The position numbers and the translations under genes were made by a program. Source: Phlyctochytrium arcticum (lineage: Eukaryota; Chytridiomycota; Chytridiomycetes; Chytridiales; Chytridiaceae). From it: DNA of 64,000 nt. The stretch covers positions 1 through 64,000 of the forward strand of contig JAHLKI010000042.1 of assembly GCA_025602905.1 (NCBI GenBank), read 5' to 3'. Below, piece after piece: positions 279 to 55,289 of the stretch (the stretch's first letter is position 1; each line of letters begins with the position of its first letter). Below the pieces are notes generated by a model, which did no database searches, was not told the origin of the DNA, and saw nothing but the letters and a program-made list of their open reading frames with translations.

Positions 279-1619
<1,341 letters not shown>

Positions 1620-12269: not shown

Positions 12270-14821
12270 ATGTCCGCAGACTCCGTCCAGTTCCATCTTG
12301 AAAAGATGGTCCCGGAGCTGGAGGACCTGCAGGAGCGCGGAATCTTTACCACAGTGAGTAGTTTGCGTGCAATGTCGAAAACGCTAATAGAACTAAGATT
12401 GTATCGTCCAGACCGAGATCAAGTCCATCGTCAAGCAGCGGACGGCGCACGAGTATCGAGTACACCGTATCATCCCCCTGAAGTCTGATTTCCTGCGATA
12501 CATTGCATTTGAGCAGAATTTGGAACGATTGCGCCGTAAGAGGAGGAAGCGGATGGGTCTTCAGGAAGACAACGAAACCCACGAAAAGAAGAAACAACAG
12601 AATGCTGAAAACGGCCAAGAGGGTGTGGTCAACGTTACGGGAGTATCGGATTACAGCATCATGCGAAGAATTCACGGATTGTATGCCAAGATGCTAAAGA
12701 AGTTTTCTGGGGACGTGGACTTGTGGATTCAATACCTCAACTGGAGTATCTCGGTAAACTCGTCAAAGGCGCTTTCTATGCAGTTTGCCAAAGCCATTCA
12801 ACTCCATCCCACCAAGCCCGTGTTTTGGATTATGGCGGCCAAATGGGAGTTTGAGAAGAATAACAATGTGGCTGCAGGACGAGTGCTGATGCAGCGGGGA
12901 ATTCGGATAAACCCAGAGAGCCAGAAGCTGTGGGCTGAGTACTTTAAGCTGGAGCTTTTATGGATTGAGCGGATCAAGGAGCGACGAAAGGTGCTGTTCA
13001 AGGATGATACATTGGCAGAACCGGAAGCGAACCAGGAGGATTCGATCGAGCTACCAAAACTGGATGACGAGCCCGATTCCGAAGCCGCATTACCCAATGC
13101 GACGACAAACGACTCGTCCACTAACGCCCCTCTCCTGAAACCCACCCTTTCCACGACACAAAAGGCTCTTTTGAGTGTCCTCATTCCTCGAGCGGTGTAC
13201 CGAAACGCCATCAAGGCCCATCCTACAGATCTTGCCTTCCGATTACAGTTTTTGGATCTGTATAGGGCATTTGGAGCTAAAGACACGCGGGAAGGATTAG
13301 AAGAAGTTTACGAATCCCTTCGAAAGGATTTCATGGATGATGCGCGGACTAAAGCCATCCTGGCAGAACAAGGGCTCCGCGACTCAGAAGTGGAGAATGA
13401 TGATCCCCGCTATCCTAGTCTTTTGCAATCGACCGTTGCCGCGTTTGAAGCGGCTGTCAAAGAGATTGGATCTATCGAGATGTGGCAAGAATTTGCACAC
13501 TTCTTGGCACGCGAATTCGAAAAGGCTACAGAGAAGAATATCCGGCTTTACCTGTCTATTCTACTGTTCCAAACCTTTGACAATGCTGATCAACAAGGGG
13601 TTGCCTCGGAGAGTATGTACATGCTTTGGTACAATCTTCTATGCACTTTACCTCTGGACCAGCTGCCACCCCAGTTTAAAATTACGCCGACAGAGGTGTT
13701 GCACAAAGCGATCGGCTGGCATAGCAAGAGCGCTGCTGTGTGGATCAAGTTCATCGAAGGCTTCACACCTAGTACAGAGCGCAAAGCACGAGATACCGCG
13801 GATGAAGACGGTTCGGAAAACAAAATTGTTCGGGGTGATAGGGCAAAAGTGGAGAAAGTATCACTTGAGGTCCGGGAACGCATGTTTACAGAAGCATGTC
13901 GCATGGTAATCAAAGAAGATGTTCATATCGTTTGGTTCCTGTATCTGGACTGGCTGGTGGATACCTGTCGCACCCAAGGATTTACTTCGGACCCTCAGTC
14001 TGAAGGTTTTGGAGCAATCAACTCTCCGGACCACGGCGACAGCGACGAACAAGAGATGGCTGATAGGTCAAATGGAACGCAATATAACTTTGATCTGACA
14101 GAGCCCAAGAAACGAAAGACACCCTATGTTATCACTACCAATCAAGTCCACGCTCGGTTTACACGTGCGCTGTCCCGCCGTGTGTTGGGCAATACCCCTC
14201 ACGCCACAACGATTTTGCAAAAGTACATTGATTTCGGATACGAGCTGCATGGGATCGATGGTGTGCGGGCAGTGTACGAATTGTACATTCCCAAGGGCGT
14301 AGAACTGGCACGGAAGGGAGCGAATTCCGCATTGATTGTGGGAGTTTTGGCGCCCTCAGTTGCTATATGGCGGAAATGTATTGACTTGGAGTGCGCGGCG
14401 GCTGGCGTGGAAAACTGGGTTCCGGCTGAGGATGAAGGCGAGGAACAAGTCGGAGACAAGCGACGAGCAGTTAGTCCAGCAGCAGACGGTGTGCCAGCTA
14501 AGAAAGCCAAGTCTGTTTCGAAGGAGACTAGCTCAACGACGCGGGAGTTGCCAATAGATGTTCGCAATCGCATTCGGATCTTGTGGGATAGAGCTACACA
14601 CGTCGACCCAAGCAATTCTGGTAAGTACCTTTGTGGAAGAAATTCGGTTGTCATGCTTTAATTCTGGACCATTAGATCTCTGGCTCGCCTACATCCGATT
14701 TGAACTCTCTGTTACTTGTGACTTTAGTCGACCCGCCAACCTGCATTGGCAAGCCGAAGGCAAGGTGCCAGATCAGGCGGCATTTGCTCGGGACTATGAG
14801 GCCTTGAAGGCTTCTCTATGA
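12270..14821 (+). CDS. UTP6: Utp6, U3 snoRNP/small-subunit processome HAT-repeat protein
   Basis: A component of the U3 processome needed for 18S rRNA maturation in the nucleolus. Exons 12270-12353, 12412-14620 and 14676-14821 give 812 residues. The N-terminus has the family pattern: VQFHLEKMVPELEDLQERGI, then EIKSIVKQRTAHEYRVHR and LERLRRKRRKRMG, then SDYSIMRRIHGLYAKMLKKF. HAT helical repeats follow (LWIQYLNWS, VFWIMAAKWEFE, LWAEYFKLELLWIERI) and more up to DLWLAYIRFELS near the C-terminus. The protein is longer than yeast or animal Utp6. The extra length includes acidic, low-complexity insertions between repeats (for example around the EPEANQEDS segment and a Lys-rich stretch near residues 735-750). 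Confidence 0.9.
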
Positions 14822-15961
14822 ACCTTTCCCATCATGTACATTTTTATTTAGTCAACTTTAATTTATTTGATTGCTCACTCGATCCTGGAAATGTGCAAAA
14901 CCCATACTACTCCCAGCCCCAACCACCAAAGGTGATTAGGATTGCCGATATAACTCGGTGGCAAGAGAAGTCCTGCGGGGTGTTTGCCTGCTCACGTTGA
15001 CAAGAGTCAAATCTGGCGTTGTTGTTGCGTGATGATCCCATGGGACAGAAAGAAAATGGGCATTGCTACCTCTGATATCGCTCGACAACAAAAGTTGTCG
15101 GATCAGAGTACACCCTTTACGTTCCTTTGATTCACGCGCATTTCTTTGCCGTAGAGACTTGCTCAACCAAACTGACGAAAAGACGATTTGCCAAGCACTT
15201 GGTGACTGCTCGACTTTTGATCAACAGGTTTCGGCCCATCTCTGCCAATAGGCTATTTCTAATCAGCAAAGCAGTTTTTTGTCGTAAAGAAGGCGGTCGA
15301 AAGTTGCGGAAAAGGATGGAAGGTCGCGGAAACACTGCAAAAAAGCAGCCAAAAAACCAGGCCGTTGTCCGTCCAACCCCGTCGATTTTCGTTTTCCACA
15401 AGTTCATTCACCAGCATTTCTTCACGGCACTCTTCCATAGTTTGACCATACCCATCCCATTTTTATCCTTCTGATTCCTTGCTGTTTCTGCAACTCGATT
15501 ATTTTGCCGGGCGATTTGTAAAAGGTCAGTATGAGCGTTGCCATGGTTGCGGTTAGACTTTCGGCTAGCGCCAAATGTCAAACAGTGCAAATTCTGGCAG
15601 GCAGATCTTTCTTGAACCAAATTCAAGTTTGAAGAAACAGTGCAGCTCAGTGTGCGTATTTTGACTATTGGTGCTGGGGAAGCGGACGGGAAAGACGTTG
15701 TGGGCCGGGACGAAGAACCGGAATTGCTGCGCTTGAAGCCGCCATTGAGTAAACTGCAAAACGAGGGACGTGTTTACTAACGTTTTCTGTCTTTCTTTCC
15801 AATCCATTTATTCATATTTCGCCTATCGAAAACTCTGTGAATTTCGTCTATTTGAACTCCTTTTACCTACGGTTTTCCAACAAATAGTCTGCCGTTTCCC
15901 CTACAACACGTTATATTTGGAAGAACGCTAGTTTCCCAGTTTACATACTGCTAGCAACACC
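14822..15961. other. Intergenic, DnaJ upstream region
   Basis: About 1.1 kb between Utp6 and the DnaJ gene. I see no gene, repeat or convincing heat-shock element array. The stretch just before the DnaJ ATG is pyrimidine-rich. Confidence 0.5.
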
Positions 15962-17253
15962 ATGGTCAAGGACACAAAGTATTACGACCTGCTGGAGGTC
16001 TCTGAAGGCGCTTCAGAGTCCGAATTGAAGAAGGCTTACCGCAAGCTTGCTTTGAAATACCACCCGGACAAGAACCCCGATGCCGGTGACAAGTTCAAGG
16101 ATATCTCCCACGCATACGAAATTCTCTCGGATCCACAAAAGCGCGATGTTTACGACCGATATGGTGAAGAGGGTCTGTCGGGAGAAGGTGGTGGTGGCGG
16201 TATGTCACCCGAAGACCTGTTCTCGCACTTGTTTGGAGGAGGCGGTGGTTTCTTTGGTGGAGGCGGTGGACGCTCACGCCCATCTGGTCCACGTAAGGGC
16301 AAGGACATGGCCCATGCTCTCAAAGTATCTTTGGAGGATCTCTACAAGGGCAAGGTCTCCAAATTGGCTCTCCAAAAGCAAGTTCTCTGTCAAAAGTGTG
16401 ATGGCAAGGGCGGAAAGGAGGGTGCAGTCAAGACTTGTTCCACTTGTGCCGGTCGTGGTGTAAAGATTGTCATGCGTCAAATTGGTCCAATGATCCAACA
16501 AATGCAACAGACATGTCCGGATTGTCAAGGAGAGGGTGAAGTCATCAAGGAGAAGGACCGCTGCAAGGGCTGTAACGGAAAGAAGGTCATTACAGAGCGA
16601 AAGGTACATTTTTATACTAGTGTTTGAAATTTATAGCTCCATATTTAACGGTTTTTCGCATTCAGATCCTTGAAGTCTTCATTGACAAAGGCATGCAAGA
16701 TGGCCAAAAGATTACCTTCACTGGTGAGGGTGATCAAGCCCCCGGCATCATTCCTGGTGATGTGATTATCGTTGTCGAAGAAAAGGAACACCCCCGCTTC
16801 AAGCGCAAGGGAAATGACCTCTACTACGAAGCCCAAATCGATCTGCTCACTGCTCTTGCCGGTGGTCAATTCGTCATACAACATCTCGATGATCGGATCT
16901 TGGTTGTCAACATCCTCGCGGGTGAAGTCATTAAGCCCGGCGATGTCAAGGCCATCACAAATGAGGGTATGCCAGGATACAAGCGACCGTTCGACAAGGG
17001 CAACCTCTACGTCAAATTCGACATTATCTTCCCCCCACCAAATTTTGCCGATCAGACCAAGTTTGCCGCTTTGGAGGCCGCCCTTCCACCTCGCCAGCCA
17101 TTGCCAAACTTCAAGGGCAAGGACGTCGAAGAAGTCGTTCTCTCTACCGTCGACCCCATGCAACAGCAGCGCGCAAACATGCGTGGCGGTCACGGCCACG
17201 ATGACGAGGACGATGAAGGTCAAGGCCCAGCTGTGCAGTGCGCACAACAGTAG
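15962..17253 (+). CDS. Type I DnaJ/Hsp40 co-chaperone (Ydj1/DNAJA type)
   Basis: A cytosolic Hsp40 that stimulates Hsp70 ATPase and delivers unfolded clients. Exons 15962-16603 and 16666-17253 give 409 residues, the same length as yeast Ydj1. The J domain (about 6-70) has HPD at residues 34-36. A Gly/Phe-rich linker follows ([14 protein letters not shown]). Four zinc motifs come next: [24 protein letters not shown] and CKGCNGKK. The C-terminal client-binding domains contain [19 protein letters not shown]. The protein ends CAQQ, a CaaX box, so it is probably farnesylated and tethered to membranes like Ydj1. Confidence 0.97.
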
Positions 17254-18390: not shown

Positions 18391-18582
18391 AGAAGAGCCT
18401 TATTCGATCCATCCGATGAGGAAGGTGGCCAGGTCAAATTGCTAGTTCAGATGTTTTGACGCGGCCGAAATACTGACGAGTAAGAATTTCAGGACAAAGA
18501 CCGGAACGATGAGGGCCTATAATTTGAATACGAGTGAGTTTTGGTCACTTGCGTTATGGACACAATCGGACTACTCACCGAA

Positions 18583-18691
18583 TCACCAGATCGGGTACAA
18601 CGCCCGCATGAAGGGTCTGCGGAGGGGCTGCTCTCTCGATGAGCCCAGAGGCAGCCCCTCGTCCTCAACCGACGCCCAGTGGCGGGAGATG
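18583..18691 (-). pseudogene. WPSVEDEG-family copy M0 (exon 2 only)
   Basis: A minus-strand match to the second exon of the repeated family: ISRHWASVEDEGLPL, then REQPLRRPFMRALYPIW and TGA. The conserved hairpin lies within it (18622-18660, stem GAGGGGCTGC / GCAGCCCCTC). The expected CAG acceptor is altered (ACTGGC). Upstream an acidic Asn/Asp/Glu/Tyr-rich frame replaces the usual exon 1. A GTGAGT donor follows the stop by a few bases, as in copy M1. Confidence 0.6.
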
Positions 18692-18911
18692 CCAGTACTC
18701 GTCGTATCGTGGCATTCTCGTAGTCGGAATCGTACTCGTACTCGTCGTGAAAGTCGTAATATTCGTCGTCGTCGTTGTTGTTATCAACGGTATGGTCCAA
18801 GTTTGACGTTGGATAAAGATCAAAGGGAGGAGGGAGGGGAGGCGACAGAAGACTAAGATGATTGATGATGAGACTGGGCCCCTCCTAAACAGCTAGAAGA
18901 GTTAGACTTAC

Positions 18912-19247
18912 CGCGATGGGTGGTAGCAGGGAGGTGGGGACACCATCGGCTGCCCGATAATTGAGCATAGGGGCGGCCCCTAGGCCCCATCCCCGGCTAC
19001 GCGCAGTGGCTGCCGAGCGTATAGCTGTCCGTTGCCTTTGCGCCTTTGCCAATTCCGTGGCGTCCGTCACATCATTACCTTCTTGATCCATGTACTTAAA
19101 ATTCAAGCTTCGACAAATTGCCACGGCTACCATAATATGTCTGTATGCCTTATCGAGTTCTGCCGGTATCAGAATCGTGTCGCCTTCTCGGGCGAAAGCG
19201 CCGGTGGAATGCAGGAGGGTGGATAGTTCACAGCCAACTGTTCGTAT
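18912..19247 (-). pseudogene. Chimeric fragment M3: unknown coding exon joined to family splice donor
   Basis: An open minus-strand frame, with no stop between 19247 and the donor at 18912, reads like a genuine protein segment (TVGCELSTLLHSTGAF, IPAELDKAYRHIM, then FKYMDQEGNDVTDATELAK). It ends in a stretch matching the M2 second-exon region (LGAAPMLNYRAAD) and a GTAAGT donor very like that of copy M1. It contains a collapsed hairpin palindrome at 18969-18981. No family is recognised for the protein part. The mosaic suggests that recombination joined a foreign exon to the repeated module. Confidence 0.4.
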
Positions 19248-19275
19248 TCAGTTAATACCTTGTCCATGATGTTGA

Positions 19276-19680
19276 TTATGGGTAGCGGGGAGGTGTGGGC
19301 TCTACTGGCTGCCCGATAATCGAGCATAGGGGCGGCCCCTCGTCCTCAACACTGCCCAATGTCGAGGGATCCTGCAAGATTATTGATGATGAGAGCGTGT
19401 TTCTTTGAAAAACCAAAATCGGTGGACTCACCGGGACAGGTGGTAGTGTGGAGGGATGGTCACCACCGGCCGAGGCTGGTAGTATAGGTGAGGTAGCTGC
19501 TGAGTGCGTTCGGTTGCAGGTCGTTGGAGGTGGTGGTGGAGTGAGGAACGGTGGCCTTCCAGATGCCCACTGTCATCCACGAGAAGCATTGGCGCTCGCT
19601 ATCCGGCGTGGAGTGATTGATTTGGGGCAGGGCATGCACCCCGTTCCGCAAGGGCGGAGGGTGGTCAAAGTTGTGATTGA
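19276..19680 (-). pseudogene. WPSVEDEG-family copy M2, frameshifted
   Basis: Exon 1 (about 19432-19680) ends with the family block QPRPVVTIPPHYHLS. A 60-nt GT-AG intron follows (19372-19431). Exon 2 (19276-19371) starts IPRHWA in the expected phase but lacks one base before VEDEGPPLCS, so the frame is broken. The usual hairpin is reduced to a palindrome of 13 bp at 19328-19340. No M-N-F start was found. Confidence 0.5.
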
Positions 19681-19796
19681 GAACCTTGGACGCGGAAAGG
19701 GATGTATGCCTTGGTGAAAAAGTATTCCTAAAAAAAAGAAAGAAATGTGATGAGATTAAGGTATGTCATATCACAAAAACAAGAATGTTGCCAACC

Positions 19797-20092
19797 TCAA
19801 TAGCACAATAGGTGCATCGCCCGCACATAGTGGTCGATGGAAGGGCTGCCCCACCCTCCCCTCAGGGGCAGCCCTTCATCCTCTACGGATGGCCACCTTC
19901 CCGAGAATGCTGCAGGGTGATGATATTTGAGTGTGTTATACTAATATCAAGCTGAGCTCTGTTACCTACCGGAACAGGGGAGTGGTCCCTACCGGCCGAT
20001 ACAGTGGGGAAGGATAGTGTACGGTGGCGAAATTAGGAAGGGGAATGGACGGAGCCCCACGCGTAGCATGAAAAGTGTTGTTTGAAGTTCAC
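19797..20092 (-). pseudogene. WPSVEDEG-family copy M4 with the longest hairpin
   Basis: Exon 1 (19970-20092) begins NFKQHFSCYAWGSVHS, paralogous to copy M1, but the start codon is GTG instead of ATG and a stop follows 18 codons later. The intron is 50 nt (19920-19969). Exon 2 (19797-19919) reads WPSVEDEGLPLRGG in one frame but is one base out of phase with the family splice. The hairpin is the best of all copies: 13 perfect pairs, GAAGGGCTGCCCC with GGGGCAGCCCTTC (19840-19877). Confidence 0.55.
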
Positions 20093-20420
20093 ACTTGTAG
20101 AGGTTGAGGAAGCCATCGGGGGAGAGTCCCCACATGGGAGTCGGAATCATCCCCCGAGAACAAGAGTAGATTTCACCGACAGTTGTAATCTGTATAAAAA
20201 ACAAATCGGTGGTGAGGGTGTGTTGCTTGTACAAAGTCAGAGTGCTTGACCTACCAGAGAAGGTAGCGAGGTGGGAGGGTCACCACCCGTCTCGGCCGAT
20301 GTGATCAGGTTGATCGGTGGTAGGGAATCGAGGCCGTTGCGATTTGGGGAGGCCTCCAAGACGATGGTTGTTGAAGTTTCGTTTTTGATATTAATGCCGA
20401 AAAATCAGCGACGTGTTTTT
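19989..20420 (-). pseudogene. Hypothetical two-exon remnant M5
   Basis: Minus-strand exon-like stretch ending at 20255 (ASPNRNGLDSLPPINLI, then TGGDPPTSLPSL), a GTAGGT donor, a 65-nt intron, and a second open stretch from 20189 to the stop at 19989 (SCSRGMIPTPMWGLSPDGF). The second part overlaps exon 1 of copy M4 in another frame. The donor context and the preceding GGTGGTGACC resemble the family exon 1 end. No recognised homologue. Confidence 0.3.
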
Positions 20421-20905
20421 TGACGTTCGCAGGAATCGTAAGCAAGCACCCCCTGAATAAAGCTAGGGTTCATCTCGACTGACGGATTAAAATTGGTCTT
20501 GACACCAAATATGTCAAATCGGTCTTGAGCAAGGGGAGAAAAATGTGGGGGGGTAGTCTTAAGTACTCCAGTAGTTCGAGTAGACTTCCGGTGTGGAGGG
20601 TACTGAAAAAAAATGTTTAAGTGCCGCTCAGGTAAATTATTTAAAAGTCGCCGGTCGGAGTTTTTGGGACTCAGGAGCGGCTTTTCGTACAAATCAGGAC
20701 TCCCTGGATTTGCAAACATTCGACGGCTGAAAGCCGCATACCGGAGCGACCAGGAACAGTAGTTTTCGACGAGGGACATATATGACGGCGGAAGAGAGAC
20801 TGTACGTTCGTCGCCATATCCAACCCATCGCAACATACAATTTTCCCAGATCAACAAACCTCTTCTTATAGATCCGGCGCGGGATTGCAACATGGAGTCT
20901 TTCAT
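20405..20905 (-). CDS. Hypothetical protein, 166 residues
   Basis: The longest uninterrupted frame in the minus-strand cluster from an ATG (MKDSMLQSRAGSIRRG). It is basic, with no membrane segment or known motif. After its TGA the same frame stays open again into the M5 stretch, so the stop could be a recent mutation or this may be one exon of a larger gene. Coding status is doubtful. Confidence 0.25.
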   Translation of the reverse strand: MKDSMLQSRAGSIRRGLLIWENCMLRWVGYGDERTVSLPPSYMSLVENYCSWSLRYAAFSRRMFANPGSPDLYEKPLLSPKNSDRRLLNNLPERHLNIFFQYPPHRKSTRTTGVLKTTPPHFSPLAQDRFDIFGVKTNFNPSVEMNPSFIQGVLAYDSCERQKTRR

Positions 20906-21416
20906 CTGGAGCCCAAAGTTACGCGGGCAATGGTAGCGCTCGTCTGCTGGGAAGAAGAGATTCGCACCGTTCAACCAGTTTGCGTGGGAAACCACAACCT
21001 TTGCACTTTACATACAGATGTACGCAAGTGTACTTGCTTCGGAGAATACTATTCCTGTGGCTATTTGTGGCTATCACTTCAATCTATGAGAAATATCCCG
21101 CAGGACCTAAAAGACTTTGTAGTGATGCACAATGTTATGCCAAGTAAAATATGGTCTCAATCTCATCATTTGCATCAGTTTACCAGCAAAAAACAACCTT
21201 TCATTGCGCAAGGGCTTTATTTAATGCAGAACATTGAGAAACTGTTATTGGAAATGAACAAAAATGAGACCGCCAATGAATATATTTGAAAAAATTGCCA
21301 AAAAAAAAAAGAAAACAAAAGAAAACAACTAGCAACATTGAATTTGACGAAGGCAACGAAAAAGAATATGAGATTCTGCCATTTGACACTGAATAGCTAA
21401 AGTAATACTCACCACA

Positions 21417-21785
21417 TCACCAAATCGGGTACAACGCCCGCATGAAGGGTCCGCGGGGGAGGGGCTGCCCCCTCAATGAGCCCAGAGGCAGCCCCTCGTC
21501 TTCTACTGACGCCCAATGGCGAGAAATGCTGTAAGATAATGGATGATGAGACTGTGTTCCTCTTAGAAAGCCAGAAGAATTAGACTTACCGGGATGGATG
21601 GTAACGGGGGGTGTATGCTCCACGGGCCTCGGGCGGTGAGACGGTAGGGGAGGTGGAAGGTATGTAGGGGGCGAGACCGGCCGCTGCACAACTGGTAGAG
21701 GTTTCGGAGGAGTATTGTTGTTGTAGATGGTGGGCGGGTGCACCGGGCCCCATGCGTAGCAGGAGAAGTGGTTATCGAAATTCAT
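21417..21785 (-). CDS. WPSVEDEG-family copy M1, the most intact minus-strand member
   Basis: Exon 1 (21590-21785) starts MNFDNHFSCYAWGPVH, followed by a Pro-rich middle and the family block SHRPRPVEHTPPV. A GTAAGT...CAG intron of 61 nt follows (21529-21589). Exon 2 (21417-21528) reads SISRHWASVEDEGLPLG, then RGQPLPRGPFMRALYPIW and TGA. If the intron is kept the frame is open throughout (122 residues from this ATG). If it is spliced the frame shifts and stops early. The hairpin is at 21459-21497. No signal peptide or membrane helix. Function unknown. Confidence 0.55.
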   Translation of the reverse strand: MNFDNHFSCYAWGPVHPPTIYNNNTPPKPLPVVQRPVSPPTYLPPPLPSHRPRPVEHTPPVTIHPGKSNSSGFLRGTQSHHPLSYSISRHWASVEDEGLPLGSLRGQPLPRGPFMRALYPIW

Positions 21786-21793
21786 TGCGGATG

Positions 21794-21980
21794 GATTTGC
21801 GTGGCGGATGTATAGCAAGAGTAAATTTGCGAGATGCGGATGGGCAGTAGTAGGGGATTCGCGAGTTGCGGGTGGATAGCAAAAGTAGATTTGCGAGTCG
21901 CAGATGGGTAGTCAAAGTGGATTTGCGAGTGGCGATGGATAGCAATAGTGGATTTGCAGAGTTCCGGATGGATAGTAAAA
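21794..21980. repeat. Minisatellite, six imperfect units of about 32 bp
   Basis: Units starting at 21794, 21824, 21856, 21888, 21920 and 21951, each beginning GATTTGCG or close to it and containing GGATGG and ATAGCAA. The array lies immediately upstream of copy M1 on the minus strand, i.e. in its promoter/leader region. Confidence 0.85.
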
Positions 21981-24426
21981 AAGCAGCGGGGGAAAGGGGA
22001 GCACGGCCTTATTTATGTGAGCTAGGATTCCCCTCCCGACTGGACTGCCCAGCATGTTCGGAAATGTTCTCTGGCGGGTACCCTCGTTGTCGTCATTTTG
22101 GGATCTTTTACCACTTTATCAGACAATGGCAGACAATGCCAGCAGATCGCTGAGTACCGTGTTAACTCGGATATTTACTCGGATTGTTTCTTCAATAGTA
22201 TGTTTTTGCATTGTCCGCTTGGGATGCACCAGATTATCATCCGAGGGTCATCCACGGGCCTTGCGTGGTTTAGTCCCATTGGCACCCACGGCGGATTCCT
22301 TTGACTCGCGGTTGACATGATAATGGTAGATGTCTGATTTAGTGCATGTCAAGAGCAAGAGAAACCATTGAAGCAGTAAAAAAAATTCTCATCGAGTATT
22401 CTGCATGCCCTTGCGGTACCAAAGGTTTTGTAGCCCAGGGCCCAATTTTACCACTTATGGTACCAGACTTAAGCATCTCGGCATTATATCTCGTGACGCG
22501 GTATGTTTGTTCCGGAAGATGCCTCGCTCCGAAGCTTTAGCTGTCACTTTCAGGGTTACCTTGAATCGCGACCTTCTGCCAAGATCCGCGAGTTTCGGTC
22601 TCAACGTTCCGAAACTTTGGAATGAAGATAAGCTTTTCAAAATGTATTTACGTCTGTTTGGCTTAGTTCACCTTCGGGCCTTCGGGCCTTCGGGACTGAC
22701 CGGATGTGTTTATTCCGATGTCAGCGGACCACACTAATGCTGCATATTTATGGCCTTATGACCGATATCATCAATTGCGTGGGCCCATCTAAGCAATTAA
22801 ATGCCTACACATGCTGGTATTAGCGAAAACCTCACTGACCAGTTTTGGATCTCGGGAAAAAATAGCAAAAAATCCCTGGCAAAAACTGTTGCTGCTGCAT
22901 TAAAAGTTATTTGGAAGTTCAAATGGACCTTCGTGGCCGGCTGCAGCCCCTTTATAACTTCAAAATAGTCCTACATACTTCCCCCAAAATGTAGTGCGAC
23001 GGATCGGTAAGGTCCGGGGAAGGTATCGTGGGAAAAGTGTCTTAACCTTGTCATGAATAATTTGTTTCAGGCCACCAAATTTGCTTTCAAAAGTATGATA
23101 CTACATTCCCGGTGAAATTTCAAGAGTATTCGTCCATGCTGGACACACCTCGAACCTGAGGAAATGATATCGCCGCACAGATTACCTGAAAATCGAACAA
23201 TTATCAAGCCTCGCTTCTATTTTGCGAATTTGCATTATTCGGGGAGGATGGTAATATGGAAGCCACTGCGGCGGAATTACACACACAGGGGGATCAAAGT
23301 TTTAAAGAAGAGTTGACACCTGTCAATGGGATTGACAGGTTGTCCGAAATGGGTGACTCTCAAAGGGAGAACGATGTGCCCCGAAATGCTTACGCCCATA
23401 ATCAAATGGATCTGTGCGCACCAAAATTAGTTCAATCGATAGAAATGCTGGAGTGAAAGTAGATTGCTAAAATGATCTGACTGGTAAGTGAAATGAATCA
23501 ATTGACAGCCGGGAATCCTGGTTATTGCAACTGGCGGCGCCCGTCAAGGAATCGGGGTTCAGTTAAATCAGGAGATGTCCATCGCAATTTGCAGCTTTGA
23601 ATCAAAAGCCTGGCTCAACGCCAGTCGGGTGCAGGAGACATTAAATTTCACATTGGACCCCGTTTGCCAAAAACATTGTTCTGCATCTCACTTCAGAAGC
23701 AGTTCTGCATCTGAGTTCTCGAACATCCGCGTACATTATGATAAGCCACATTAAAGGTTTATATTCAATGAAAGCCAATGGTTACCATCAACCCGGCAGG
23801 TCCCGAGAGTGGCTCATCGAAAAATATCGACGTGGAAAAAACCCACCCAATGCAAGAAGCAAGAGTCGCGCGTCCGGCTCAGCAGGACCCTTGAGAGGGA
23901 TGGTAACCGAATTTTTTTTGCAAACATTACGGATTGAGGGCATGGCCAGAAGAATTGGGAGATAAATCCATGGCGGCACATTGGTTAAATTACCCATTCG
24001 AGAACCGCCGATGTGGAAATAAATCGATAGCTGGACTTTGTGGATAACCCGACGCAGGCTACTTATGCCGGAAGGATGCACCAGGACTAACAAATACCAA
24101 GTTGAATAAATTCACGTGCCCGAGAGTAATTGTTTTAATCAGACTAGCCTGCTATAGAGCTTGCTATGAAGCTAAGGAGAGCGTACTGCGCTGCTCTGGC
24201 CTGATCGCTGGACGCGCGAGCGACCCCAAAATGAAGTTACATGGTCGAGGTATTGTCAGAAATGTCACGATGCTCCACCTATTGTTGGAATGGACGGCGC
24301 CTTCGCCATCCGGGCTACATAACTTTGTTTTCGATAGCCGCCGAAAGTACTCAATTACAAAAATGTCCCGCCGACTAAGTGATTGAATTCTCACGCTAGC
24401 AGCAACTTATAAGATGTTTGAATGAT
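21981..24426. other. Spacer between the two oppositely oriented clusters
   Basis: About 2.4 kb without a supported gene. Short open frames up to about 110 codons exist but none is conserved in appearance. A triple CTTCGGGC repeat occurs at about 22672-22698. A short stretch near 23510-23565 translates to something like a dehydrogenase glycine motif, but I regard it as chance. Confidence 0.4.
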
Positions 24427-24867
24427 TTAAACGGTGTACTCCTCAAGCTTTAAATAACGTACAATAGAGGTCACTCTAATATAGATTAGCATTCCTGTGA
24501 AGGTACTGTCGGCGAAATCCGCTATTGGTACCGACGCGACCAGTAGAGGTTGTGAGCTAGCATTAAAAATCCAAAGCATACCTTTGCAAACATGACCGGT
24601 ACCGATCGAAAATGTCTCAACTAAATGTTGGAATAGCTGGAGATGAATGTCCATTCTTACCGTCATGAGGACCAGGATCGTTTCAGCTGATGCTTTAGCA
24701 TTGTCTGTCCAGTGGCAAAAGTCCCACCATGACGACAATGACTTGGGGAGTAAAAACATCATGGAAATGATGCCCGGGCAAGGTCTTTCGGGAGGGAAGT
24801 TTAAAGCGTATAAAAGAATTAGGCTTCCTGCACCTCCCCTGATTCTCCCATCCTCTGAATTTACCAT
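24427..24867 (-). CDS. Doubtful 146-residue ORF antisense to copy P1
   Basis: An ATG-initiated minus-strand frame whose first 30 codons are antisense to the promoter and start of copy P1. The last two thirds (KGMLWIFNASSQPLLVASV, then FTGMLIYIRVTSIVRYLKLE) look protein-like and hydrophobic. No homologue is recognised. It may be a remnant displaced by insertion of the P1 module. Confidence 0.2.
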   Translation of the reverse strand: MVNSEDGRIRGGAGSLILLYALNFPPERPCPGIISMMFLLPKSLSSWWDFCHWTDNAKASAETILVLMTVRMDIHLQLFQHLVETFSIGTGHVCKGMLWIFNASSQPLLVASVPIADFADSTFTGMLIYIRVTSIVRYLKLEEYTV

Positions 24868-25337
24868 GAACTTTCAAAATAGCACCCTTTACCAACTGTG
24901 GGCTGATGTCCCTGCCTATATTACTCTCCCCCCCACTACCACCAACATCAGCAGCAACCGCAGCAACAGCAGCAGCAGCATCACCACCACCACCACCACC
25001 AGCTGGAGCAGCAGCAGCAACAGCAACAGCAACAACAGCAGCAACACACCACCCCCACCATGAGCCGCCGCTGTCCCCCTGCCTCGTTCCCCCGGTGCCC
25101 CCCGCCGTCCCTCCACTCCCACCGCCCTCGGGCGGTGGTGACCACCACCCCACGCCCCACCCCCCGGTATGTTGCACGTTTTGGCTTTATAGTCGCACAC
25201 ATACTCATCTTCAATCACCTTTCACCATCGCCCGCATCTGGCCCTCTATTGAGGATGAGGGGCTGCTCCCGTGCCCACTGAGGGGGCAGCCCCTCTCCCG
25301 GGACCCGTTCATGCGGGCCTTTTATACAATTTGGTAG
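24809..25337 (+). pseudogene. WPSVEDEG-family copy P1
   Basis: TATAAAAG at 24809-24816 followed by the conserved leader TTAGGCTTCCTGC. ATG at 24866 opens MNFQNSTLYQLWADVPAYIT and a Thr/Ser/Asn-rich run that stops at 25063. A second frame carries HSHRPRAVVTTTPRPTPR to the GTATGTTGCACG donor at 25167. The acceptor site is CAC instead of CAG (25225). Exon 2 (25226-25337) reads IARIWPSIEDEGLLPC, then RGQPLSRDPFMRAFYTIW and TAG. Hairpin arms are at 25257-25266 and 25286-25295. Start and end are out of frame with each other, so it is probably a decayed copy, unless a further intron in the repeat corrects the frame. Confidence 0.55.
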
Positions 25338-25864
25338 CGGGGGTAGGTAGGCATCTTCACTTGGATGTTTGAGAAGTTCTAAGCTTACTCATCGCTTTCC
25401 GCATTTTCTCCCTCTCAATGCACTTTGCTCTCAGAAGCTGGCGTTATTTTTGATTTTTGTATGTTTTTAAAAAAAAATACATTTTTTTGGGGGATTCTTT
25501 CTTGCTCATCTTCACCGTCTTCACCTTAACTACCAATGCAAAAATATATCTTAGGAGTACCTCAATGAAAATACCTTTTTTCGGAGCAGGCCAATTAGTA
25601 GCTGCTGGTTCTGTTGTCCGACTCTAAGTTCCCAATGAAAAAATTGATACGTACGAATAGTCATTAATGAAAGCGTTTGAGGGCAAAACTAGGCCACAAT
25701 TGCTTTTTCCCAGCCGATATCACCTTCGCAACCTATAATTTCGCTCCGAACTCAAGACCACGTGCACAATCAAGGACTCCTTCATGTCAAATGAATGCAA
25801 TTTCATTCTGGTGATCATCGGCCCGTGTAGATAGCATACGTACGAGATCTAAATTTGTAGATTT

Positions 25865-26051
25865 AGTAGCTTTTTGGCATGATATAACTTGCATGACTAA
25901 CTTTTTCCCCAAGGTACTTTAGCCACAATGACGGCCAGAAGAATCGACGATGGTAGATTAAGTAGCTTTTTGGCATGATTTGTATAACTTGCATAACTAA
26001 CTTTTTGCCCAAGGTACTTTAGCCACAATGACGGCCAGAAGAATCGACGAT
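25865..26051. repeat. Imperfect tandem duplication, about 90-bp unit
   Basis: Two copies beginning AGTAGCTTTTTGGCATGAT, at 25865 and 25961, each ending GAAGAATCGACGAT. They differ by a few substitutions and a short indel. Non-coding and of unknown role, between copies P1 and P2. Confidence 0.8.
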
Positions 26052-26752
26052 CGGTATATATGAGCGGTCTGTTGAACAATACAGTATATACAGTTTCTGT
26101 TGTGATGGGATGAATATGGAGACAAACCGACTATATATGGACAGAAGCTGCAGGCTCTCGTCCGCCGTCAGATGTCACCTGTCGACATATACTTGTCGTT
26201 ATCCTTTTGGTATGCGGCGCTCCCCGGTTGAATGTTTGCATATCCAGGGACTAATGCAAATGCCATGATTTGTAATTTGTGAGGAAAACTGTTTCCGAGT
26301 CCCTTCATCAATAAAGCATGTGCCGCACATCTGCATGCGAGTTCCGCCGGAAATCACAAGCATTGCCTCATTGATGACCCTCCACATCTATTCTCCCCTT
26401 TCCACGACGGATGTGATATATTGCTGTCAAGACCAACAAATCTGTCAGTCATGCGATCCCATGGGTCAATGACAATGATTCTTGTTTTTGCTCCCTTACT
26501 GTATTGCTTCGTGCTGCGATTGATTCTGAAATCTGATTCATAAAACGCTGGCTCCTGAATCCGTCCACCGTACTGCGCAGCTGCTTACGGCAAGTTCTTA
26601 GTGACGTTCAATGCTCGCGGCGCGACGCGTCGCGTCGTATTTGTTTGCATTCCCGATCGTGGCATTTTCAGGGCATTTGGCGTCCCGAGTAGCTTTCCGA
26701 GTAGCGCCAGGGAAAAGGATGTCAGTTATTTAAGCCGGCTGCTTCCTGGGTT

Positions 26753-26781
26753 CCCCCCCCCCCCCCCCCCCCCCCCCCCCC
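26753..26781. repeat. Poly-C tract of 29 bases
   Basis: An uninterrupted run of 29 C, directly before the exon-1 region of copy P2, replacing the usual TATA/leader/start. It may be slippage-prone in the genome or mark an uncertain stretch of assembly. Confidence 0.9.
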
Positions 26782-27082
26782 ACAATTTTCCCCCAACTCC
26801 CCAATACCGCAAATTACTGGCCAAACCACTATACCCATCGGCCCAACTACCACATCCAAAGTCACATGTTTCCTACTGGCCTCGGCCGGTGGTGAACACC
26901 ACAACGACCAAAAGAGCGTCGCCTCCAGAACGTCTATCGACCAACGCCTATCATCCGACACCACCCTTCAGCATCCCACGCATCTGGCCTTCCATCGAGA
27001 ATGAGGGCTGCTCCCGTGCCCATTGAGGGGACAGCCCCTCTCCCGAGACCCCTATATGAGGACATTTTACCCTCTGTGGTAG
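26782..27082 (+). pseudogene. WPSVEDEG-family copy P2, lacking start and donor
   Basis: Downstream of the C tract the frame carries WPRPVVNTTTT (matching the RPRAVVTTT block of P1). It runs without an intron donor into PPFSIPRIWPSIENEG. One base is missing after GAGGG, which breaks the frame. The downstream frame recovers LLPCPLRGQPLSRDPYM and ends with W-TAG at 27082. The N-terminal M-N-F block is absent. Confidence 0.5.
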
Positions 27083-27223
27083 TGGGAGGTAGGTGTGCAT
27101 CTTCGATTGATCCGCGAGAAACTATAATCTCACTCATCACTCTCGCCTTTTTTTTCCATCTATAGCTTTTTTTTTGGAGTATACTCCTCATCAACACATC
27201 CCGGGGGAGGGAAGTTCAAAGTG

Positions 27224-27693
27224 TATAAATGAACTAGGCTTCCTGCCCCTCCGCTGTTTCTCCCATCCTCTGAAGTCACAATGAACTTCGAAACGAATAC
27301 CTTGTACCAACTCTGGGCCGCTGCGCCCGCATACATCACCCTCCCCCCCACTACCACCAACACCACCACCACCAGCATCAGCTGCACCAGCTGCACCAGC
27401 AGCAACAGCAGCACCCCGACCATGGGCCGCCGCTGCCCCCTGCCTCGTTCCCCCGGTGCCCCCCGCCGTCCCTCCACTCCCACCGCCCTCGGGCGATAGT
27501 GACCACCACCCCCCGCACCACCCTCCGGTATGTTGCACGTTCTGGCTTTATACTCATTCATGTACTTATCCTCGACCACCCTTCAGGATCTCTCGACTGT
27601 AGCCCTCAGTCTGAGGGGTTGCTCCCCTGCCCACTGAGGGGGCAGCCCCTCTCCGGGGACCCGTTCATGCGGGCCTTTTATACAATTTGGTAG
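27224..27693 (+). pseudogene. WPSVEDEG-family copy P3
   Basis: TATAAAT at 27224-27230 and the same leader as P1. ATG at 27281 gives MNFETNTLYQLWAAAPAYIT and then a Thr/Ser tract; the frame stops at 27499. The other frame has HSHRPRAIVTTTPRTT up to the GTATGTTGCACG donor (27528), with a 59-nt intron ending CAG at 27586. Exon 2 has an in-frame TAG in place of Trp and a frameshift, but keeps GLLPCPLRGQPLSGDPFM and the IW-TAG end at 27693. Hairpin arms at 27613-27622 and 27642-27651. Confidence 0.55.
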
Positions 27694-27894
27694 GGGGATA
27701 GTAGGTAGTTTTATTCGCTTGGATATGCGAGAAGTTCTAAGCTCACTCATCGCTCTCCCCATTTTTTCCACCTATAGCTTTTTTTCGAGTATAATCTTTT
27801 TCAACACATCCCGGGGGAGGGAGGGAAGCCTAGAGTGTGTACAAGAATTAGGCTTCCCTTTCCTCCTCCGATTCCCCAACCTTCCAAATTAAAA

Positions 27895-28246
27895 ATGGAC
27901 ATCGAAAACTTCGCACTCTACCTCCTTTGGGATACGGCACCAGTATACACTCCCCACCATCACCAACATTAGAACAACCCTCGCCGCCAACTACCCCCAT
28001 TCGCTGGGCCCCGCGCCATTTCTCCTATACTACTGGCCTTGGGCAGTGGTGACCAACATTCCGCACCACCCCTCGGTATGTTGCACATCCCGGCTTTGTA
28101 CTGGCACATCTACTCATCCTCAACCACCTTTCAGCATCGCCCGCATCTGGCCGTCGGTCGAGGATGAGGGGCTGCTCCCGTGCCCACTAAGGGGGCGGCC
28201 CCTCGCCCGAGACCCGTACATGCTCGCATTTTTCCCCATTTGGTAG
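27895..28246 (+). pseudogene. WPSVEDEG-family copy P4
   Basis: ATG at 27895 opens MDIENFALYLLWDTAPVY, clearly paralogous to the P1/P3 start, and then stops early after a deletion relative to P1. WPWAVVTNIPHHP leads to the donor at 28076 and a 59-nt intron ends CAG at 28134. Exon 2 (28135-28246) is intact: SIARIWPSVEDEGLLPC, then RGRPLARDPYMLAFFPIW and TAG. The hairpin arms (28166-28175 and 28195-28204) pair with one G-T wobble. A GTAAGT donor follows the stop by a few bases. Confidence 0.55.
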
Positions 28247-28375
28247 CGGGGGTAAGTAGGCATCTTCGCTTGGATATGTGAGAAGTTCTAAGCTTACTCA
28301 TCGCTCTCCCAATTTTTTCCATCTATAGCTTTCAAAATTATTCCTCATCACCACATCACAGAGGAGTCTGAAGTG

Positions 28376-28894
28376 TATTAAAGCACCATGCTTCCTGCCC
28401 CTCCATGCTTCCATTCCGAATCAACCATGTCTCTCAAAAACTTCTACGAAAATCTCGTGTGGGAAACTACCGTTGCGGATTTCCTTTACACCACCACCGG
28501 CGACACCACCAGCAAAAGCAACAGCCCCGGCGGCAGCAGCAACGGCAACTCCCCAATCTTGAGCCGCCGCCGCCGCCTCCCTGCCCCATTCCTACGGTCT
28601 CCCCCGCCCTCCCTCCTCGCGCTACCCTTCGGTATGTTGCACGTCCTCGGTTGTACTAGCACATCTACTCATTCTCAATTACCCTTCAGCATCTCCCGAC
28701 TGTGGCCCTCGGTCGAGGATGAAGGGCTGCCCCTGTGCTCAGTGCTAGAGAGAGCTCTTTTCCGTCGGCCGCTTCCTCGAGGGCTTTACACCCATTTCTT
28801 GGTCTTTCGGGAGAAGTCTGTAGTTATAAGAGACCGAGCGGATACCCAGCCGTCATCACCGCGGCAGAAGCAGCAGATGTTCTTATTCACATAG
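28376..28894 (+). CDS. WPSVEDEG-family copy P5, divergent C-terminus, open if unspliced
   Basis: TATTAAAG at 28376-28383, an ATG at 28388 and the homologous ATG at 28427 (MSLKNFYENLVWETTVADFL) in the same frame. A Ser/Pro/Arg-rich middle leads to a GTATGTTGCACG...CAG intron of 58 nt (28632-28689). With the intron retained the frame is open to TAG at 28894 (156 residues from 28427). With it spliced, the frame shifts. Exon 2 begins SISRLWPSVEDEGLPLCS and then diverges completely. The right arm of the hairpin is lost. Confidence 0.45.
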
Positions 28895-31789: not shown

Positions 31790-32339
31790 ATCTTGATTTC
31801 TTGCCGTGTAATGCCCGTTTCTGGGATGTAAGAATTGGGTTTAAAAATATGGGCTGCTTGATCAAGCAATGTTGATAGGAGAAGGAATGAATTTGGATTA
31901 TGTGGGGTCATTTCGCATATGCTAACGCATGTGTCAGGGACAAAAAGGTAACTACCCTAATTTGAATTGAGTGAAGCCCCACATCGATCTGCCCTGGATA
32001 GATTGTTTACGTTCGTTGATAGCCGGCTGAGAGATGCATTCAACACCAGAATCGCTAACCAGAATAAGATTAAATACATCCACCGCCAATTTATCGTTAA
32101 AGCAAATTCAAAAGTAGACCGAGAACTTGTTATGAAAGATCAGCGTTCAAGTTCCGTAACGACGTATGTTATTCCGGCAAGAAAGAGTAGAGGTTATATA
32201 GAGCAGTACGCCAAAGACAGAAAGCAACCGAATGTAAATATACACAGACTAGCTAAAAATCGGGATCACTAATATTACAACAGCTATATGCAATCGACAG
32301 ACTGAAGGGAAACGTGTATACAGGAAAGAGTGGGCTTTT
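31790..32339. other. Intergenic, no supported gene
   Basis: A plus-strand frame at 31967-32272 (101 codons) has no ATG at its beginning; its first ATG would leave about 45 codons. I do not call it a gene. The region contains the upstream sequence of the Hsp70-like gene. Confidence 0.4.
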
Positions 32340-33299
32340 TCATAGGCTGATATCCTGCAATGTGGAAGCTAGAGAATTGACGGAGGTGGCTGATGAGGGA
32401 TTTCGACGTCGTTTTGACATGATGACAGAGAGATTTTGCTTAATGTCGCTGTACCAGTTGGTGGGCGAGTGAATGGAATCGCTGACGGCCAAAGGGTGGG
32501 GGAGTGGTGAAGGGGAACGGGAGTGGTTTGGGAGATATGTTTCGCGAATAATGGTGGGTAGGTAATCGTCTTCCGAATCAGAATTTGATCCAAAAATTTC
32601 TTGGGCAGCGGAGATTGGAGTATTGGTTACGGAGAGTGGTGGAGTTGTTGGAGAATCGGTGACGGCGTCGTCCAGGGATGTCAGGGTCAGGACTGGGAGT
32701 GGCTGCTGACAGGGCTGCTGGTGTGGTGGACGCGGAAGTGATCGCGGAGCTGGCAGCGGATTTGTCAGAGGGAGTGCTGACGGGATTGGAGTCGGTGAGG
32801 AAGGCTCATCGGACATGGCAAATTCAACCAGAGTTTCATCCTCGGCAGCGAGTGAGTCGGAGAGTGAAGCACTTTTGGGGCGGTAGTTGGACATGTCTCT
32901 CATCTCAACACCACTATCGGCGTCGCTATCCTCGAACCAGTCATTGTCGCTCGTTTCGTCCTCTAGTTGAAGTTGTTTCCGGCCGCGGGCCCGTCGTTGG
33001 CGTTGGCGGTGTCGGCTTCGGCGTTTCTGGTTGGGTTGTTCGATCTGATCAAGAAAGGAAGATGGGTCGAGCGACTCGGCAAAACTGTCTGCGTCCGTGT
33101 GCGAGTACCATGAAGAGCGACATGATAATTTTTCGTCCGAGACGGGCTTGGCAGTTCGGACTGAGAGTGCTGGTGCGGTTGATGAAGGTGAATGCATCCT
33201 TGATGTGTCGGCTGTCGTCGTCGTCGTTGATGTCGGAGTTGAGTTTGCCGAGCGAAAGAAGGTGAACGAGAACCGCGGTGACTTTAGTGCAAGGGGCAT
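32340..33299 (-). CDS. Disordered Ser/Pro-rich hypothetical protein
   Basis: A single-exon gene of 319 residues from ATG 33299 to TGA 32340. It contains a basic Arg-rich patch (NQKRRSRHRQRQRRARGRK), acidic stretches, a Pro-rich middle (ALPLTNPLPAPRSLPRPP) and a basic C-terminus (SVIMSKRRRNPSSAT). Most of it should be unstructured. A TATAAGAA-like box lies about 50 bp upstream of the ATG on the minus strand. No family is recognised; a nuclear regulatory role would be guesswork. Confidence 0.6.
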   Translation of the reverse strand: MPLALKSPRFSFTFFRSANSTPTSTTTTTADTSRMHSPSSTAPALSVRTAKPVSDEKLSCRSSWYSHTDADSFAESLDPSSFLDQIEQPNQKRRSRHRQRQRRARGRKQLQLEDETSDNDWFEDSDADSGVEMRDMSNYRPKSASLSDSLAAEDETLVEFAMSDEPSSPTPIPSALPLTNPLPAPRSLPRPPHQQPCQQPLPVLTLTSLDDAVTDSPTTPPLSVTNTPISAAQEIFGSNSDSEDDYLPTIIRETYLPNHSRSPSPLPHPLAVSDSIHSPTNWYSDIKQNLSVIMSKRRRNPSSATSVNSLASTLQDISL

Positions 33300-34388: not shown

Positions 34389-36396
34389 CTACATGACTTC
34401 TACAACCTCAATCGCGTTCCGACTACTCGTCAGGGAATGTCGCGACTCGGTAGCATTGATCGCCGGCATGCTGATTTGCTCATGAGAAGCATGGCGTGAT
34501 GATGTGGATTGACTGGGAAGAGACGTGGGAGGTGGAGGAGAGGTTGCTTCGGGACCATCGCCGTCGGCTTTGGCCGCATCAGCACCAGAAAAGACGGGTT
34601 GTCTTGATCCCTATAGTTCCACCTAAGTTAGTTTCGTGCATTCCGAAAGATGCAGGATTTAGCAATACCTTGCCAGCCCCCTCAGGTCTTCTCCGACGTA
34701 AGCTAGTCGTGCTTGACCCCCCATCAATAGGCGGCAGCATGCTCCCATCATCCGAACCCGTTCCTTTCGGGAGCTTAGGACCTTTTTGTGATGACGGTGG
34801 AGGTGCGTGTCGGGAAGCCGTCTTTGATGGTGGGAATGATGAGTGTATATTGGTTTTGGGGGTTTTTGAAGGCCGGGAAGGTGCTGGTGGGAGTCGAATC
34901 TCGTTCTGGGTGGGACGTGAGTGTGATTTCTATCGACAGTTGCTTGATTAATTGCTGGGGCGTGAAAACACATAAACCCAAGAACTTACGCGTGATGCAG
35001 GTGTACGTGATTTGATTCTATTTTGATTAGATATAGGAGGAACACGTCCCACATGCGACTTTGATCCAGGATCTTCAATCCCATCAATCAGTCTTGCCCG
35101 GTGTTGTTCGGCACGCTGTTTGGTCTCAGTAAGTCAACCCGAAAATGTTCCTTAAATACGGGATGAGTAAACTTACACATGAGGGGCAATTGAAGGTATC
35201 ATGTGGGTCTTGGTAAGTGGGATCAGACACAAATCGGAGGGCGTTGGATATGAGATGGTGAGTCGATGCGGAAGCAGGATCTGATGTAACCCAAACATAT
35301 TGTAAGGCCTCTTGGATGGAAGGACTGAACAATGAACCGGCGCTTACCCCAAAATTCAATCCACTCGCCCTTTTTCCGCAACTTGGCCATTGGCATGACA
35401 TTCACACTGACGACCCGCCCCTCAAACATCTTCTCCAACACAGACACCAATGGCACGGAATTTGCCCAGCGAAGTACTACCCTACCCTTACTCAATCCTA
35501 CCGTATACCGAACTCCCTCAGCCCCACCCACCTCCTCCACCCCATCAGTCAATGGATGTGGCTGGGCACCTACTTCGAAACCTGCCCCATCTTGCAGGAA
35601 TGATCGGTCAGAGTCCTCCAAAAACGGCATTTCGACATCAGAGGAATGCTCAACCGTTAAAAACGGTTCTGATCGGACTCCTCCTGCTATAAACGGATCG
35701 ACGCGACCCGGAAGCACGGCATGCGTATGCGGATGTAGCGCAACAACGACTCCGCCTCTTGTTTCCTCCAAATACCCCGTCAACGCTTTGCGTAATGTTC
35801 CTGGTGGGATGGGGCCGGGGTAAAGTGCTAGTAGGACCGCACTGTATTTTGGTAGAGTTTCAACCCCTACATGCTGTTTTCCTGGATCAACCACATCGAC
35901 CTTCATTCCATGCGTGGTGCGGAGGTAGTCGGCCAAGGGTTCGAGAGCCTGAGGGATGGATGTGAGGATAAGGATGATGCGTTGGTAGGAGGTAAGTTGG
36001 CGGACGGGAAGACATGTTTTGTGGTAGGTTCGGGAACACGATTGGCAGGGTTGGGGGAGAGGTTGAGCGACCTTATGGCCGCAGGCTGGACAGGTTGGCG
36101 GAGGTAGAAACTAGATCGCGTTGATGTTAGTCAAATGCATCAACGGAAAGATCCTTCGAGTAATACGAACCCAGGCATCCTGTATATGTCTTCCCTTCTT
36201 GATACCTTTACGCGAGAACCAGTCTTTCAGTGCCGGGTCTTGCAAAGCATCATACTCAAATGGGGGGCTGGTATATTTCGGTAACAGCCGTCGTTTCCTA
36301 TTTACTCTTTATCAGTAACATTGTAAAATCCGCGATCCGCAAGCATACTAACCCAGTTGGAACGATCGACGGTAACGCAACAGTCTCAACCTCCAT
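34389..36396 (-). CDS. Unknown protein with Cys/His zinc module, divergent from the giant coiled-coil gene
   Basis: Seven exons on the minus strand (36353-36396, 36171-36297, 35348-36110, 35177-35280, 34990-35124, 34669-34905, 34389-34610) give 543 residues in one phase. The N-terminus has RRLLPKYTSPPFEYDAL. Next comes a zinc-type module (CPACGHK, CQSC, YHKTCL). A structured region resembles an alpha/beta domain (YQRIILILTSIPQALEPL, GVVVALHPHTHAVLPGR). A second CPSC pair lies near residue 355. The last about 170 residues are Ser/Pro/Arg-rich and disordered. The exon 2 donor is GTTCGT (weak). No known family recognised. It shares a 387-bp promoter with the large coiled-coil gene, so a joint pathway (possibly flagellar) is a hypothesis. 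Confidence 0.65.
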
Positions 36397-54473: not shown

Positions 54474-54545
54474 TTGACCCTGACCAACAACATCATAAAT
54501 AAATCTGTACATAACGTTGAACGACCTTTTCGCCTGCGAAAGGGG

Positions 54546-55091: not shown

Positions 55092-55289
55092 GTTTCGGTG
55101 TTTCGTCGCGAGGCCACGAATCGGTCGCTTTCTGAAATCGCAGATCGGGCTGGGCAGAGTTGTTGCGTCACGACTTCTATGACAAACCGTCCTTTATACC
55201 CAGCATAAAAAGACTTGAAGGCATAAAATCCTTGGCCGAGAACTTGCTGCACCTGTAGAACTTTGCTGCTGGAACTCACTTAGGAAATA

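Follow-up and report, generated by a model that had tools for sequence, protein, structure and literature searches.

Hairpin-forming inserts are known from fungi as double-hairpin elements, which are mitochondrial and dispersed. In coding DNA, inverted repeats have been described in Saccharomyces cerevisiae, where arms are altered by template switching (PMC8604942), and in the mitochondrial genes of Nematomorpha, where perfect inverted repeats lie in coding sequence and both arms are translated (PMC6649704). The wtf genes of Schizosaccharomyces pombe are a fungal multicopy family, for which gene conversion is discussed (PMC11497594, PMC9562144). Few descriptions exist of lineage-restricted gene families in early-diverging fungi. 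Here, we analyse a multicopy family in the chytrid Phlyctochytrium arcticum that resembles these systems in part. It lies at 18.6–28.9 kilobases (kb) of a 64,000-nucleotide stretch (the window; GenBank assembly GCA_025602905.1, contig JAHLKI010000042.1, positions 1 to 64,000).

We are confident that this is a real, lineage-restricted gene family. The fuller account, that of a lineage-restricted family of small-protein genes held in two arrays and shaped by birth, death and conversion, together with the guess at function given below, we regard as probable.

Two arrays and the intact genes of C55

The preliminary description of the window had reported at least nine related modules in two opposed groups and listed nine of them. 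An iterated profile search, seeded from four plus-strand copies and run over the window and a second contig, C55, recovered all nine (M1 to M4 on the minus strand, P1 to P5 on the plus strand) plus three fragments. The expectation values (E) of this search are self-reinforcing and hence optimistic, and opposite-strand profile matches at hairpins were left out of the module count. Seven of the nine were also recovered by single-query genome searches: P4 DNA matched five window places including itself, all on the plus strand, and the M1 exon-2 peptide matched seven including itself (E 1e-20 to 4e-4). M2 and M3, recovered by neither query, are supported by self-comparison of the window, in which M3 matches M1 (E 9e-14) and M2 matches P5 (E 7e-9).

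Searches of the 31.5-megabase genome, with tools that score best candidates only, placed the family at two loci only, the window and contig C55 (81,002 bases). Matches on contig C13 were set aside because they fall in the ACC-repeat (low-complexity) part of the query, as was a C55 match at 21756-21654 that covers the middle of the profile only and is likely low complexity. The C55 array (about 28–45 kb) follows the same plan as the window, minus-strand copies and then plus-strand copies, and contains long tandem and inverted duplications. The central spacers of the two arrays have short sequences in common, including the arm ACCTGTCAAT (C55 37965-37987) of a perfect palindrome that lies in the window spacer at 23318..23340 (ACCTGTCAAT-3-ATTGACAGGT). 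Further duplicated stretches, with open frames 59–100% alike, occur in the C55 array at 31973-32499, 34522-35153 and 37600-38308, and one C55 frame between family copies gave a weak match to AbfB (Pfam; E 0.005, below its cut-off).

Six copies on C55 belong to what we call type I, whose plan comprises a TATA-like box, a short phase-2 intron and a 5'-splice-site-like sequence just past the stop. Three of them, m31, m36 and p39, are intact, each with a start codon, a phase-2 intron bounded by GT and AG, an open exon 2 and a stop; p42, p43a and p43b are broken. The intact two-exon genes encode 101, 123 and 124 amino acids. Their proteins begin with a conserved N-terminal block (MxFxxHxSxxxWG), followed by a middle rich in Thr and Pro, HRPRPVVTT and a C-terminal block (ISRAWDSVEDE...PYMRAxYPL), and the final codon of m31 is Arg instead of Trp. 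The spliced m31 protein, written before the search, is identical to P0001 (123 amino acids), the hypothetical protein DFS34DRAFT_654734 of P. arcticum, and the splice model is thereby supported.

A shorter relative, type II, is found about 430–500 bases downstream of m31, m36, p39 and p43b and keeps the HRPR and C-terminal blocks (ISRLWPSV...YMxxFFPIW) only. When spliced, m31II and m36II yield about 51–55 amino acids (MYNLRxSTFLVxHRPR..., then LWPS...YMxMFFPIW), with more than one AG possible as acceptor; p39II is open only unspliced and p43bII is broken. Because type II keeps the core peptide without the exon-2 hairpin of type I, it is the peptide that is constant across the family and the hairpin that is not. 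In both gene types a 5'-splice-site-like sequence follows the stop directly, in 15 of the 16 copies listed, a raw count from which P5, M2 and M3 are excluded as their ends are lost; p43a fits a shorter pattern only and P3 has no match. The simplest reading of this post-stop donor would be an intron in the 3' untranslated region.

Selection, decay and possible function

The preliminary description had inferred past selection on protein from exon 2 of P4 and M1, with about 16 third-position differences against about 7 and 8 at the other two positions. That count is exact (7/8/16 at positions 1/2/3) and on its own gives p 0.09. The signal was pooled by counting parsimony changes on a tree for four blocks in 18 copies from both loci. 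Changes at positions 1/2/3 numbered 27/24/42 in the N-terminal block (12 copies; p 0.05), 7/4/16 in the HRPR block (11 copies; p 0.013), 13/7/45 in the exon-2 core (15 copies from both loci; p 4e-9) and 19/11/33 in the C-terminal block (16 copies; p 0.003), or 66/46/136 summed. Exon 2 of P1, P4 and M1 gave 10/8/23 (p 0.008), against phase-less control segments from the leader and 3' regions of window copies (6/6/9, 9/5/3 and 8/8/7, phase not significant).

The ratio of nonsynonymous to synonymous substitution rates (dN/dS) was 0.04–0.37 in 13 of 17 hand-picked pairs, dS being saturated in the other four. Within the window it was 0.15 for P1 and P4 and 0.14 for M1 and P4, so these copies evolved as genes for a time. 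High or saturated dS between many copies further means that many of them are not young. The third-position excess came out as the preliminary description had expected, and its claim of past protein-level selection is borne out by the pooled excess, the phase-less controls and the intact C55 genes of the same exon–intron plan. Judged by its codon positions, the family is protein-coding.

None of the window copies is an intact spliced gene. On the plus strand, P1 (24793..25358) has a TATA-like leader, the start MNFQNSTLYQLW, HRPRAVVTTTP in a different frame from its MNF start, an intron whose acceptor AG is lost and an exon 2 open to an IW-stop. P3 (27208..27717) also has a TATA-like leader, the start MNFETNTLYQLW, its HRPR block (HRPRAIVTTTP) in a frame other than that of MNF, a broken exon-2 core and an IW-stop. 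P2 (26840..27105) is without N-terminal block and start, and its frame-broken exon 2 ends in LW-stop. P4 (27822..28268) carries a leader, an MDIENF start, a premature stop early in exon 1, an intron and an exon 2 open to an IW-stop, and P5 (28360..28827) a leader, an MSLKNF start and the exon-2 core, the conserved C-terminus being lost. On the minus strand, M1 (21401..21792) comprises an MNF start, the HRPR block, an intron-like stretch and exon 2, and a 32-base tandem repeat (21793..21980) replaces its usual leader; in M1, as in P5, start and exon 2 share one frame only with the intron retained. The broken copy M2 (19781..20043) has an exon-1 end, an intron and a frame-broken exon 2, with its N-terminal block (VNFKQHFSCYAWG) at 20047..20128, and M3 (19307..19497) has an exon-1 end, an intron and an exon-2 start in a broken frame, without a start codon. 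M4 (18570..18692), also without a start, is an open exon 2 with the peptide ISRHWASVEDEG...PFMRALYPIW-stop. A minus-strand fragment with an M1-like donor and intron (18855..18950) is probably the exon-1 end of M4, with about 160 other bases now lying between it and exon 2; another (20205..20338, minus strand) holds an HRPR block (SHRPRRVVTLPP) and part of the intron.

The shared parts listed in the preliminary description hold for some copies and fail in others. P1 and P3 have a clear TATA-like box; P5 has TATTAA at this place, P4 a degraded GTACAA, and M1 none. The M-N-F start is present in P1, P3 and M1 and replaced by MDI in P4, MSL in P5 and VNF in M2. The IW-stop end is kept in M1, M4, P1, P3 and P4, changed to LW-stop in P2 and unrecognisable in P5, M2 and M3. 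Because no copy is an intact spliced gene, the window array looks like a relic. Frame breaks and turnover had been proposed before, and the lack of an intact spliced window copy and at least one mosaic pair on C55 agree with them; what changes is that the family has another locus and another, shorter type of gene, that of the two clusters it is the one in the window that has decayed, and that many copies are not young.

Several other features were noted around the plus-strand copies. An upstream element with CAGCTG (24635..24736, plus strand) is shared with the sequences upstream of the C55 genes m31, m36 and p39. Between P1 and P2, a unit of about 100 bases is directly repeated (25857-26059; the two copies 92% alike), and a run of 29 C (26753-26781) stands just upstream of P2, near the expected site of the leader and N-terminal block; it may represent either a repeat or a problem in the assembly. 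In P4, the place of the TATA box falls within the loop of an 11-base inverted repeat with perfect arms (27822-27859), and P1 seemingly has a shorter version of it, by eye.

The three proteins measured are basic (isoelectric point 9.7–10.3) and hydrophilic on average (grand average of hydropathy −0.46 to −0.71). As a weak guess, the product may be small, basic and for the most part disordered, and may carry a docking motif towards its C-terminus: the HRPR and C-terminal blocks would form a short motif that docks onto a partner, and the variable middle would serve as a tether.

A number of points weigh against our account. Just two of the six single-pair exon-2 tests among M1, P1, P4 and p39 reach p<0.05. 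The block p-values are too small because the blocks were preselected for conserved-looking peptides, a worry lessened by the phase-less controls and by the finding that, outside the hairpin, position 3 has the most differences in all six pairs of these copies; the control sets are themselves small (17–23 changes), and the two 3' sets overlap. The otherwise open M1, P5 and p39II require intron retention, and C55 also has broken copies (p42, p43a, p43b and p43bII). Gene status is read from the sequence, and the public model behind P0001 may have been produced automatically. The post-stop donor count is a raw one. Finally, the AlphaFold2 single-sequence model of P0001 contains no confident structure (predicted local distance difference test score 50), and the docking idea is therefore without structural support.

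Mosaic copies and exon-2 hairpins

The promoters of m31 and m36 are identical at 119 of 120 positions; identity drops to 41/59 and 47/60 across the leader and N-terminus and then returns, in successive segments down to the stop, to 56/57, 55/60, 60/60, 60/60, 60/60 and 59/60. Over the most divergent 50 columns both genes are nearer p43a (m36 40/50, m31 37/50) than each other (30/50), which is why the donor cannot be named. This mosaic likely arose by conversion or recombination between copies. At a larger scale, an inverted pair of segments, 74% alike, lies between M2 and M1 (20701-20802) and between P1 and P2 (26151-26250), an arrangement that points to a large, degenerate palindrome underlying the window array. 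The arrays would have grown via tandem and inverted duplication, and conversion between copies would have reshuffled promoter, N-terminus and 3' half.

The multicopy, inverted arrangement would also be expected of a non-autonomous transposable element or a family of transposon ends, with the codon signal as a relic, and C55 holds open frames at 53452-57893 and 67970-72621 which we take to resemble MULE-type transposases and a copia-type element. However, dispersed copies were not found, all matches judged real among the best candidates scored lying in the two arrays; homologous blocks end at varying places between copies instead of at fixed termini; and neither the codon-position bias nor the existence of an intact gene whose product equals a public protein fits such an origin. 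A match to a transposon terminus had been named beforehand as a possible refutation, and no mobile-element pattern was seen. We therefore consider a transposon origin very improbable.

Multiple broken and mosaic copies with no relative found outside this genome also recall selfish or conflict genes, a killer or driver family evolving in the style of wtf. Such a driver would be expected to make a pair of poison and antidote isoforms and to bias transmission. Yet the proteins here are hydrophilic on average, and evolution in this style also suits orphan families of the ordinary kind; we think the reading very improbable. A broader alternative, in which C55 is the active locus, the window and the broken C55 copies are donor relics, conversion swaps N-terminal cassettes and template-switch hairpins repeatedly add new peptide to exon 2, would make the family a system of genetic conflict or for generating diversity that is particular to this lineage of chytrids. 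We consider it unlikely, if somewhat less so than the selfish-gene reading, and keep to a lineage-restricted family of small-protein genes.

In most type I copies, exon 2 contains a hairpin in which as many as 14 pairs enclose an 11-nucleotide loop. In M1 it lies at 21459..21497 (minus strand; 14 pairs including G-U), and equivalent sites are found in M4 (18622-18660, minus strand), P1 (25257-25295), P3 (27613-27651) and P4 (28166-28204); only a degraded form is seen in M3 and P5, and the lowest-energy fold of p43a lacks it. A strict arm pattern, GGGGCTGY-(8-30)-RCAGCCCC, occurs at seven places in the genome, all of them family copies on the contigs with the spliced genes. A second hairpin is present in m31, m36 and p43a, with perfect arms of 18, 18 and 15 bases; its left arm, which lies within an insertion, repeats in reverse complement the conserved stretch that encodes the C-terminus. 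By eye, a further insertion is seen in p42, with arms of 9 bases, and in p43b the right arm has apparently been lengthened to match its own left arm. With arms of at least 10 bases, loops of 3–40 and simple arms filtered out, 15 of the 16 perfect inverted repeats lie inside the two arrays, which make up 27 of 145 kb; they are not independent events, because several represent one inherited hairpin.

These hairpins raise the possibility of a structured non-coding RNA family, in which the exon-2 hairpin would be functional and the reading frame incidental. The recurrence of the hairpin in type I, its persistence in the frame-broken p43b and the confinement of the strict arm pattern to family copies are in keeping with this. 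However, covariation in ten sequences was not above shuffles (0.198 vs 0.194, standard deviation 0.021), with change on both sides at one of 14 pairs, in two of the ten sequences, so that selection for RNA structure is unsupported. Nor does an RNA family explain the degraded or unformed hairpins of M3, P5 and p43a, the peptide kept in type II without a hairpin, or the third-position excess outside the hairpin, and Rfam gave no match at gathering score over window 17–30 kb. We consider a functional RNA about as improbable as a transposon, and return to the protein-coding family.

Template switching both makes and repairs the arms of inverted repeats and alters coding sequence, according to two reports (PMC8794818, PMC8604942). 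The exon-2 hairpins of the present family likely arose by such switching during replication, a mechanism that would have added them to existing exons, in frame in m31 and m36. The direction of change appears to be insertion, not loss.

Relatives, neighbours and comparison with known systems

The preliminary description had recognised no known family in these copies, and apart from P0001 no match was obtained in the libraries searched. Pfam returned no family at E<=1 for p39, m36 and M1, nor did NCBIfam and PHROGs for P0001 and M1, and P0001 had no match at E<=1 among Protein Data Bank sequences. A word-based search of a 5.8-billion-protein collection was run with the type I alignment (7985 candidates scored), with m36 from HRPR to the end (4) and with a mixed type I/II alignment (2059), and P0001 was the sole match in each. 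P0001 represents a cluster of two member sequences on one contig, the second of which may be m36 (about 89–90% identical). Absence elsewhere is not proof, because this search needs exact 5-residue words and short genes often go unannotated. Literature searches on chytrids, the species, orphan families, DFS34DRAFT, hairpins and template switching, and wtf yielded no description of the family among the papers listed. We conclude that, within the searches made, the family is new.

Compact tandem genes with no relatives among the cellular proteins searched might point to a captured viral gene family. The introns, which are short and run from GT to AG, speak against it, as do the viral libraries, neither of them rich in fungal viruses: among viral contigs 46 stretches fit a pattern of the type I alignment and none was a relative, and PHROGs gave no match. 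Phage records queried with P1 DNA gave no match either. We regard viral capture as highly improbable, and the lineage-restricted gene family as the better account.

Left of the array, window 12553-17253 encodes a UTP6/HAT-repeat-like protein and a DnaJ chaperone (Pfam), and an open frame at 550-1062 (minus strand) has what we take to be the N-terminal sequence of histone H4. Direct repeats of about 82–102 bases lie at 56584-57038. No tRNA genes were found in the window, and four telomere-repeat patterns were found neither there nor on C55. Elsewhere in the assembly, protein-kinase matches score identically on the contig pairs C30/C71, C13/C70 and C12/C36, which suggests duplicated or haplotype contigs.

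With its two gene types, the family offers a compact natural record of growth, decay and reshuffling. Short spliced genes of this kind easily escape annotation; the intact p39 was absent from the proteins returned. Several self-complementary insertions in one small exon also provide a concrete test case for a template-switch origin of nuclear coding sequence.

Set beside the known systems, the strict hairpin pattern is confined here to one gene family, unlike the dispersed mitochondrial double-hairpin elements. The likeness to wtf genes is one of description and not of sequence comparison; dual transcripts and membrane segments are features of wtf, whereas the present family is marked by two arrays. 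In S. cerevisiae, the reported changes concern arm substitutions (PMC8604942), whereas here whole self-complementary segments have apparently been inserted. Compared with the Nematomorpha repeats (PMC6649704), those of P. arcticum are short, lie in spliced genes and are missing from the type II members. The evolutionary style is itself known; what is unusual about this family is the apparent growth of hairpins within one of its coding exons.

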